A stretch of DNA of 64,000 bases, from assembly GCF_900110505.1 (NCBI RefSeq), contig NZ_FODZ01000003.1, positions 311,975-375,974 of the forward strand, given 5' to 3'. Below are positions 24,302 through 26,757 of the stretch, piece after piece; positions within the stretch are counted from its first letter, which is position 1, and every line of letters begins with the position of its first letter. A program made the translations under genes and the position numbers. The DNA comes from Luteibacter sp. UNC138MFCol5.1 (GTDB taxonomy: Bacteria; Pseudomonadota; Gammaproteobacteria; Xanthomonadales; Rhodanobacteraceae). Under the pieces are notes generated by a model. It was not told the DNA's origin, ran no database searches, and worked only from the letters and a program-made list of their open reading frames with translations.

Positions 24302-25249
24302 TCAGGCGGAGGGCGCGAGCGCCGCGTCGAGTTCGGCGGGCGTGCCGATGGCCTTGCCCTCGATCGACTTGTCGATGCGCTTGATGAGGCCGGTGAGGAC
24401 CTTACCGGGGCCACATTCGATGGTCTGGACGATTCCTGCCGCGGCGAGCGCCTGCACGCACTCGGTCCAGCGGACCGGCAGGTACAGCTGGCGCATCAGC
24501 GCTCCACGGATGTCCTCGACGGTGCCGTGCACCTTCGCGTCGGCGTTCTGCACCACGGGGATCGACGGCATGGACCACGCGATGGCGGCCATGCGCTCGC
24601 CGAGCGCGTCCGCGGCGTCGCGCATGAGCATGCAATGCGAGGGTACGGACACCGCGAGCTTCACGGCCTTCTTCACGCCGAGTTCGGCGAGGCGCGCGAT
24701 GACCCGGTCCACGGCGTCGGCGTGTCCCGCGATCACCAGCTGGCCCGGCGAATTGAAGTTGGCGGGCGCCACGATCTGGCCTTGCGCCACCTCCTCGCAC
24801 ACCTGCGCGATCTGGGCGTCGTCGCCTCCCAGGATGGCGGCCATGGCTCCGACGCCCGGCGGCACCGCGGCCTGCATCAGTCGGCCACGCTCGGCCACGA
24901 GGCCCGCGGCATCCTTCAGCGAGAGCGCGCCCGCGGCGACCAGCGCGCTGTATTCACCAAGGCTATGGCCCGAAAGGTACGCCGGCAGGGCGCCGCCCTG
25001 CTTCACCCACACGCGCCACACGGCGACGCTGGCCGCCAGCAGGGCCGGCTGCGTGTTCTCGGTGCTGTTGAGGAGGTCTTGCGGGCCATCCTGGCTGATG
25101 GCCCAGAGATCGACGCCGGCACCTTCCGACGCTTCGTCGAAGGTGGCCTTCACTTCCGGATGGATGGCCGCGAGCTCGGCGAGCATGCCGATGGACTGCG
25201 AGCCCTGGCCGGGAAACACGAAGGCGAGCGAGGCGCTGGATGAGGTCAT
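24302..25249 (-). CDS. fabD: Malonyl-CoA:ACP transacylase
   Basis: This enzyme loads malonate from CoA onto AcpP. I start at ATG 25249 (MTSSSASLAFVFPGQGSQ), giving 315 residues; an upstream in-frame ATG would add 29 residues of unlike sequence. The catalytic serine is Ser96 in SGHSLGEYSAL, and SVPSHCMLM holds the active-site histidine. About 210 bp with a large palindrome separate it from fabH. Confidence 0.97.
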   Translation of the reverse strand: MTSSSASLAFVFPGQGSQSIGMLAELAAIHPEVKATFDEASEGAGVDLWAISQDGPQDLLNSTENTQPALLAASVAVWRVWVKQGGALPAYLSGHSLGEYSALVAAGALSLKDAAGLVAERGRLMQAAVPPGVGAMAAILGGDDAQIAQVCEEVAQGQIVAPANFNSPGQLVIAGHADAVDRVIARLAELGVKKAVKLAVSVPSHCMLMRDAADALGERMAAIAWSMPSIPVVQNADAKVHGTVEDIRGALMRQLYLPVRWTECVQALAAAGIVQTIECGPGKVLTGLIKRIDKSIEGKAIGTPAELDAALAPSA

Positions 25250-25299
25250 GCGAAACGGTTCCGGGACTTCAAACCGCGCATGGTGCCAGCAACCCATGG

Positions 25300-25316
25300 G
25301 CGAATGCACCATTCGC
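25300..25316. repeat. Short inverted repeat upstream of fabD
   Basis: GCGAATG at 25300-25306 and CATTCGC at 25310-25316 form a perfect 7-bp hairpin with a 3-nt loop. It lies in the same fabD-fabH gap as the larger palindrome and may be part of a second REP-like unit. Confidence 0.55.
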
Positions 25317-25369: not shown

Positions 25370-25445
25370 TCGCCGATACGATCGGCTCCCACACCTCCGG
25401 TAGAAGGGTCACTACCGGAGGTGTGGGAGCCGATCGTATCGGCGA
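25370..25445. repeat. 34-bp perfect inverted repeat of GTGGGAGC type (REP-like element)
   Basis: Arms 25370-25403 and 25412-25445 are exact reverse complements around an 8-nt loop. Each arm contains GTGTGGGAGCCGATCG. This looks like two head-to-head REP units of the kind found in Pseudomonas and Xanthomonadales. The transcript between fabH and fabD would form a very stable hairpin, without a T-run. Confidence 0.88.
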
Positions 25446-25457
25446 TTTCATGCCGCC

Positions 25458-26426
25458 TCAGTAACGCAGCAGCGCCGAGGCCCACGTGAAACCGCCGCCG
25501 AACGCCTCGAGCAGCAGGTTCTGGCCGCGCTGGACCTTGCCCGAACGCACCGCGTAATCGAGCGCGAGCGGCACCGAACCGGCCGACGTGTTGGCGTGCT
25601 TGTCGACGGTCACGATCACGCGGTCCATCGACATGTTCAGGCGCTTGGCCGTGGCTTCGATGATGCGCAGGTTCGCCTGGTGGGGGATCAGCCAGTCGAT
25701 CTCGTCTTCCTTCATGCCGGCGTCCTCGAGGGTTTCGCCGACGAGGGAGTCGAGCGTCTTCACGGCGACCTTGAACACTTCGCGGCCGAGCATGTTGATG
25801 CGCACGCCGTGGTTCGGCTCGTCCTTGAATCCGGCGGACACGCCGACCGGATTGAACAGGAGGTGCTTGAACCCGCCGTCCGCGCGCAGGCGCGTGGTGA
25901 AGATGCCCGGCTCGTCCGAGGCTTCCAGCACGACCGCACCGGCGCCGTCGCCGAACAGCACGCACGTCTCGCGCTCCGTCCAGTCGACCATGCGGGTCAG
26001 CGTCTCCGCACCGATCACGAGCGCCCGCTTCGACTGGCCGCTGCGGATGAACGCGTTGGCGACGCCGAGGGCATAGACGAAGCCGGAACAGGCGGCGTTG
26101 ACGTCGAACGCCGCGCAGCCGTTGGCGCCGAGACGGTGCTGCACGAGGCAGGCGGTGGACGGGAAAATGATGTCGGGCGTGGTGGTGCCGAGGACGATCA
26201 GGTCGATCTCGGACGCCTTGACGCCGGCCGCCTCGAGCGCGCGCTGCGCGGCGAGGAAGGCGAGATCGCCGGTGGTTTCGCCGTCGGCCGCGACGTGGCG
26301 CTCGGTGATGCCGGTGCGCGTGCGGATCCACTCGTCGCTCGTTTCGACGATTTTTTCGAGGTCGGCGTTGGTCAGCACCTTGTCGGGAAGTGCGCTGCCG
26401 GTACCGATGATGCGTGCGTATTTCAG
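25458..26426 (-). CDS. fabH: 3-oxoacyl-ACP synthase III, probable CTG start
   Basis: This enzyme starts fatty acid synthesis by condensing acetyl-CoA with malonyl-ACP. Catalytic Cys113 lies in NAACSGF, and the partner residues are in IPHQANLRI and DKHANTSAG. The conserved first strand (KYARIIGTGSALPDKV) is encoded upstream of the first canonical start, GTG 26378. The only plausible initiator ahead of it is CTG 26426, before the in-frame stop at 26442-26444. This gives 322 residues, the normal size, with a weak GGGGA box 7 nt away. The CTG overlaps the stop of a 5-codon ATG ORF (26440-26423). Starting at GTG would leave 306 residues and remove a core strand. Confidence 0.9.
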   Translation of the reverse strand: MKYARIIGTGSALPDKVLTNADLEKIVETSDEWIRTRTGITERHVAADGETTGDLAFLAAQRALEAAGVKASEIDLIVLGTTTPDIIFPSTACLVQHRLGANGCAAFDVNAACSGFVYALGVANAFIRSGQSKRALVIGAETLTRMVDWTERETCVLFGDGAGAVVLEASDEPGIFTTRLRADGGFKHLLFNPVGVSAGFKDEPNHGVRINMLGREVFKVAVKTLDSLVGETLEDAGMKEDEIDWLIPHQANLRIIEATAKRLNMSMDRVIVTVDKHANTSAGSVPLALDYAVRSGKVQRGQNLLLEAFGGGFTWASALLRY

Positions 26427-26499
26427 GACCGTATCCCCATGTCAGGGAGGATTCGCCCGGACGCGATCAACGGGCCCGGGGCCGGGATGAATCGGTATG

Positions 26500-26562: not shown

Positions 26563-26757
26563 TCAGTCCTCGACTTCAACCGCACCGCGGGTGTCGATGA
26601 CCTTCTTGCCACGGTAGAAACCGTCCTTCGTCACGTGGTGACGCAGGTGGACTTCACCGCTGGTCGGGTCGGTCGACAGCTGCACGGACTTCAGCGCGTC
26701 GTGCGAACGGCGCATGCCGCGGGTGGACGGGGTCTTGCGGCTCTTGGCAACGGCCAT
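26563..26757 (-). CDS. rpmF: 50S ribosomal protein L32
   Basis: This small basic protein of the large ribosomal subunit has 64 residues and starts [22 protein letters not shown], which is diagnostic. The family's zinc-binding cysteines are absent, as in many proteobacterial L32 proteins. It follows yceD by 18 bp, the widespread arrangement. In many bacteria plsX comes next, but here a hairpin and fabH follow. Confidence 0.97.

Follow-up and report, generated by a model that had tools for sequence, protein, structure and literature searches.

The fabH gene of the Luteibacter genome studied here very probably starts at a CTG codon (positions 26424..26426, minus strand) standing 7 nt behind the Shine-Dalgarno-like motif GGGGA (26434..26438, minus strand). 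The non-canonical codon is kept in relatives, CTG standing at this place in 60 genomes in eight genera of the family. A CTG-started fabH belongs to a known kind of feature, the non-canonical start, of which infC and sigR are examples; here it concerns a new gene, CUG as the codon and an unusual depth of conservation; no prior paper on a CTG start of fabH was found among open-licence full texts, a body of literature outside which most subscription papers lie.

In the window, i.e., the whole 64,000-nucleotide stretch of DNA that was analysed, the gene order on the minus strand is rpmF, fabH and fabD. Read from the CTG, fabH occupies positions 25458..26426 and comprises 322 codons and a stop; the upstream neighbour, rpmF, encoding ribosomal protein L32, lies at 26563..26757 (start coordinate deduced from the protein length), and the downstream neighbour, fabD, which has an ATG start, was located from the sequence at 24302..25249, all on the minus strand. 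The fabH product gave a PF08545 match with an E-value of 2.2e-34, the single match in the window's genome; the ACP_syn_III domains and the full-length alignment to solved FabH place it among the FabH proteins, and its identity as the condensing enzyme 3-oxoacyl-ACP synthase III is predicted from these domains and the alignment. The 5' part of the reading frame, traced back from the conserved GTGSALP motif, reads TGA CAT GGG GAT ACG GTC CTG AAA TAC GCA CGC ATC ATC GGT ACC GGC. The TGA stop (26442..26444, minus strand) lies six codons 5' of the CTG, and the minus-strand sequence contains no ATG, GTG or TTG in this frame between the stop and the GTG at 26376..26378 (minus strand), the first standard start. 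That GTG is residue 17 counting from the CTG, and a start there would drop the first 16 residues and with them the first strand of the fold; the earlier note had described both the lack of standard starts and the encoding of this strand 5' of the GTG, and its coordinates are exact. Residue 2 of the solved FabH chain 4ryb_A aligns with residue 2 of the window's protein, and residue 2 of 1hn9_A, which we take to be E. coli FabH, aligns with residue 3; since the alignment of the best solved chains sets in at query residue 2 or 3, the CTG stands where a fabH start is expected. The choice of this CTG behind GGGGA, already made in the earlier note, is thus backed by the solved chains as well as by the relatives considered below.

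Inverted repeats were noticed on both sides of fabH. A long, near-perfect one, GGCTCCCACACCTCCGGTAG...CTACCGGAGGTGTGGGAGCC, lies between fabH and fabD (window positions 25371-25444) and resembles a terminator or a repeat element; another, GCGAATG...CATTCGC, precedes fabD (about 25250-25316) and is a possible fabD control site. The latter stretch is nearly identical in six Luteibacter genomes that lack fabH (L112-L117), and the window stretch begins alike. On the rpmF side, the segment 26504..26547 (minus strand) holds a strong hairpin with a TTT behind it, just past rpmF, which is terminator- or attenuator-like; a similar hairpin lies upstream of fabH in 16/16 Luteibacter genomes, and one was seen by eye behind rpmF in each of the six fabH-less ones. 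In six species, only about 23-32 nt separate the hairpin segment from the CTG, so that a fabH promoter would have little room there.

A FabH search of 23 Luteibacter genomes revealed matches at no less than 88% identity in 16 of them (88-98% identity to the window's protein); in six others the search hit nothing but other proteins, and those weakly (22-27% identity), and G012, an 80% complete draft, showed no match. The window's protein is 98% identical to FabH of a record named L. jiangsuensis, on which its assignment to the genus was based. All 16 fabH genes have CTG-AAA-TAY at the start position, and the control genes rpmF and fabD have an ATG start in 16/16 loci each. When variable columns are counted gap-free relative to the CTG, codons 1-15 of fabH have 1, 2 and 11 variable columns out of 15 at the first, second and third codon position, and the 30 nt upstream of the CTG have 8, 8 and 9 out of 10; codon-type variation starts right after the CTG, and therefore fabH coding begins at or right after it. 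Of the Shine-Dalgarno columns, -11 and -10 are invariant in the 16 genomes, -9 varies in 6% and -12 and -8 vary in 25%.

The family consists mostly of soil-type bacteria. Its survey took in 233 genomes of 26 genera, 219 of which contain FabH at a cut-off of E <= 1e-80; G106 and G145, both 99% complete and belonging to other genera, gave no FabH match at this cut-off. Start regions were obtained for all 219, 217 being parsed by script and two, both TTG, by eye; the N-terminal motif was unmatched in about a quarter of 80 loci, mostly distant ones, which were left out of the counts. In nine genera (87 genomes), the position of the CTG is taken by CTG in 60 genomes, TTG in 18, ATG in 5, GTG in one and other codons in three (G024, G047 and G056), where a canonical start lies within two codons. 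The CTG genomes are distributed as g1 16/16, g4 9/10, g5 10/16, g18 2/2, g19 5/5, g21 2/2, g24 9/15 and g25 7/7; g2 has CTG in 0/14 genomes, with TTG in 12, GTG in one and another codon in one. An NTG codon was found in 82 of the 85 parsed genomes of the nine genera, to which the two genomes read by eye add TTG, and because this codon is confined to NTG while most neighbouring upstream codons span many triplets, it can be recognised as the start codon. The remaining genera have ATG two codons further upstream (119 genomes), apart from g17, in whose 13 genomes ATG lies one codon downstream of the CTG position; CTG stands at the position as well in three of the g17 genomes, which were excluded from the CTG count. 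Unlike in Luteibacter, the five fabH genes of the Lysobacterales outgroup carry an in-frame ATG at least three codons higher up.

The mean Shine-Dalgarno pairing is -7.4 kcal/mol at the CTG (n=60); at the same position it is -6.7 kcal/mol for TTG (n=16, the two genomes read by eye being left out) and -7.7 kcal/mol for ATG (n=5). For ATG two codons upstream, it is -3.4 kcal/mol (n=120, including the g5 genome G056), and for the g17 ATG one codon down, -6.7 kcal/mol (n=13). The idea of a Shine-Dalgarno compensation peculiar to CTG holds only partly, since TTG and ATG at the same position and the g17 ATG have strong pairing too; the comparison uses the means, p-values that disregard relatedness being set aside. 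Masking of the start by mRNA structure found no support, as shuffled sequences fold at least as well as the window region (z 1.28). An upstream stretch, AATCCTCC (region 26434-26455 in the window), which can pair with GGGGAT of the Shine-Dalgarno sequence, was seen by eye in just a part of the Luteibacter genomes.

A FabH protein tree, built by a quick method, contained 122 rows (117 family genomes and five outgroup rows), leaving out 100 genomes with ATG at -2 for which only short loci were available and the truncated genes of G137 and G199. CTG is spread over the depth of the family in this tree, with a minimum of 12 switches into or out of CTG, and 41 of the 118 inner branches are open. The outgroup rows were labelled by hand as ATG at -2 despite an ATG at least three codons upstream, which can affect the 17 changes counted among all states, but not the 12 between CTG and the rest. 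The tree nests Luteibacter inside genera with ATG at -2; an alternative tree that groups 17 rows of g3, g6, g10, g22 and g23 and leaves Luteibacter outside has a score better by 3.48 log units (p-AU 0.559), and the stretch GGGGATACGGYTCTG is shared by several g1 genomes and the g21 genome G146. Because of the higher score of the alternative tree and the stretch common to g1 and G146, Luteibacter may simply have retained an older CTG, with regain as the alternative.

If the CTG is the start, the following mechanism can be proposed. In Luteibacter and seven related genera, the CUG in the fabH mRNA, some 7 nt downstream of a strong Shine-Dalgarno sequence, would serve as the start and would be decoded by the initiator tRNA as formyl-Met. 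Relative to AUG, initiation would be weak, and IF3 would restrain it; little FabH would then be made, and the strong Shine-Dalgarno sequence would offset part of the loss; a low FabH level would be tolerable owing to MadB, malonyl-ACP decarboxylase, as a second route into fatty-acid synthesis. According to the available text of PMC11497404, CUG is the least frequent of the four bacterial NUG starts, accounts for 0.024% of annotated starts and has an output of 0.86% of that of AUG. No change of the initiator tRNA that could turn CUG into a good start was found; its anticodon stem has the canonical form in 26/26 sampled family genomes. In the same 26 genomes (L355-L380), the apparent infC start, assigned by eye from the position behind GGAG-like sites and referring to that position, is ATC in 24 and ATA in two; such starts would escape prediction based on ATG, GTG and TTG. 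A non-canonical infC start is described in the accessible portion of PMC5472188 as the arrangement whereby IF3 limits its own synthesis. The host side of repression by IF3, an ordinary initiator tRNA and an IF3 gene, is thus present in 26/26 sampled genomes, and, because the initiator tRNA is canonical and infC apparently starts with ATC or ATA, discrimination against CUG is expected as in other cells. A regulated FabH level set through the CUG start is plausible; that FabH output is low and limited by IF3 through this codon is possible, if doubtful. It is unlikely that FabH is throttled on purpose by an IF3-repressed CUG retained from an early stage of the family, in which case the entry into fatty-acid synthesis that FabH primes would follow the stringency of initiation (IF3 relative to 30S).

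The CTG could also be a start without any regulatory role, a poor codon that drift was allowed to leave in a gene of lesser importance. This reading, which is compatible with the CTG being the start, comes somewhat short of an even chance. It draws on the state of fabH in Luteibacter: in six of the 23 genomes (G022, G001, G015, G004, G003 and G009; L112-L117), rpmF is followed by fabD after a short spacer and fabH is gone from its site, which was inspected in these six of the 14 family genomes lacking a FabH match. The loss perhaps happened more than once, as in fabD the six genomes fall within a group of eight that includes two fabH-bearing ones, with three changes counted, and a single origin within Luteibacter is marginally disfavoured (p-AU 0.052). 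A PF08541 match was found in 0/6 of the fabH-less genomes, and since both fabH and this match are missing, their fatty-acid synthesis would need another way to start. The same reading is favoured by madB (PF09500), present in 22/23 Luteibacter genomes, including all six without fabH; according to the part of PMC12093956 available, Xanthomonas MadB restores growth to fabH mutants of E. coli and Ralstonia, and PMC5011732, in its accessible text, gives fabH as essential in X. campestris. A second entry route could allow a low FabH level or none. As the reason for CTG in some genera, madB is unsupported; it is nearly family-wide (224/233 genomes) and would therefore permit CTG rather than explain it. 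Against drift stand the fixation of CTG in g1 (16/16), g25 (7/7) and g19 (5/5), the good conservation of FabH in the genus at the identities given above, and the published direction of start switches, which favours AUG, with CUG very seldom gained (2 of 61,358 AUG starts and 1 of 2,468 UUG starts switched to CUG in the available text of PMC5622118).

The readings that move the start away from independent initiation at the CTG fare much worse. One of them is termination-reinitiation, or coupling, with translation of fabH following on from a short ORF that ends in the CTGA. The earlier note had pointed to the geometry of termination-reinitiation in a five-codon ORF, ATG GGG ATA CGG TCC TGA (26423..26440, minus strand), and this ORF is indeed exactly as it described, overlapping the fabH start in a shared CTGA, so that the required geometry exists in the window. 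The five-codon ORF with ATG recurs in 6/16 Luteibacter genomes (8/16 with TTG counted), and ORFs of varying length ending in CTGA occur with an ATG start in 22/60 CTG genomes and with any canonical start in 35/60. Against this, the five-codon ATG ORF is missing from 10/16 Luteibacter and 53/60 CTG genomes (it is found in seven), and four of the 16 Luteibacter genomes examined have no canonical ORF ending in CTGA. A TGA overlapping the CTG is present in 53/60 CTG genomes and absent in seven, and by itself it is uninformative, because any A as the first base of codon 2 creates it. The analysis shows no conservation of an upstream ORF that overlaps the start; because no fixed one is kept, reinitiation is unlikely as a shared mechanism, and as the explanation of fabH translation it is very improbable, the mini-ORF probably being a bystander. 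The comparison with related genomes proposed in the earlier note therefore upheld the conserved CTG, in 16/16 Luteibacter and 60 family genomes, and not a conserved mini-ORF.

It is still less credible that the real start is canonical, either the GTG at 26378 in the window or an upstream in-frame ATG, GTG or TTG elsewhere. The GTG owes its candidacy to being the first standard start in the window, and the earlier note had named it as the alternative; but its column reads GTG in 11, GTC in four and GTA in one of the 16 Luteibacter genomes, and its use would delete strand 1. Upstream, the in-frame stop lies six codons above the CTG in the window and five in G019, with no canonical codon between. 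Among the 60 CTG genomes, ATG, GTG and TTG are absent from the in-frame stop through codon +6 in 22, the window included, and a canonical start is absent within -15..+6 in 29. Canonical in-frame codons do occur upstream in the other 38 genomes, at scattered places; in two of these, G046 and G049, a TTG also directly follows the CTG. Across all CTG genomes with upstream canonical codons, 53 of the 60 such codons scored have a weaker Shine-Dalgarno sequence than the CTG, and seven, in G005, G049, G051, G059 and G215, have one at least as strong. In four of the five g19 genomes and in G222, the ATG at -5 has a Shine-Dalgarno energy of 0 to -1.7 kcal/mol versus -7.3 to -8.4 kcal/mol for the CTG; the CTG start is less certain there. 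The lack of a usable canonical start therefore applies to the window and 21 other genomes, and is less certain in the remaining 38.

Practically negligible is the chance of -1 frameshifting from ATG 26440, which lies one base out of the fabH frame and has an in-frame ATG at about its place in 4/5 g19 genomes, or of the CTG being a sequencing error, a possibility raised in the earlier note: the ATG is missing from 10/16 Luteibacter genomes, and both ideas were rejected because the CTG recurs in the same frame across many separate assemblies of independent genomes, which excludes an error.

With the CTG as the start, fabH of 60 sampled genomes in eight genera offers a natural experiment on selection in favour of a poor start. 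If CUG does set the FabH level, the opening step of fatty-acid synthesis would be coupled to the condition of the translation apparatus, and if IF3 throttles FabH, lipid synthesis would be controlled through the choice of start codon. Start prediction relies on ATG, GTG and TTG (PMC5472188, available part), and therefore the fabH N-terminus of these genera is probably wrong in databases.

Among known systems, FabH of the related Xanthomonas starts both straight and branched chains according to the text available of PMC5011732 and PMC12093956, in which nothing was found about the start codon of fabH. The annotated bacterial CUG starts (20 ORFs, 0.024%, in 69 genomes) share the codon with fabH; the accessible portions of PMC9845219 and PMC11497404 deal with counts and reporter output, whereas the present case concerns one gene keeping CUG through a family. 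The gene infC, with AUU or AUC and autoregulation by IF3, resembles fabH in that a non-canonical start is kept on a core gene, but it is the regulator's own gene, whereas fabH is a metabolic gene with CUG (PMC5472188, available part). Streptomyces sigR, repressed by IF3, likewise combines a non-canonical start, GTC, with a strong ribosome-binding site, and its GTC is kept in 32/34 genomes of the genus; as presented in the same part of PMC5472188, sigR encodes a stress sigma factor and its case was demonstrated by experiment, whereas the CUG of fabH is read from sequence and extends over several genera.
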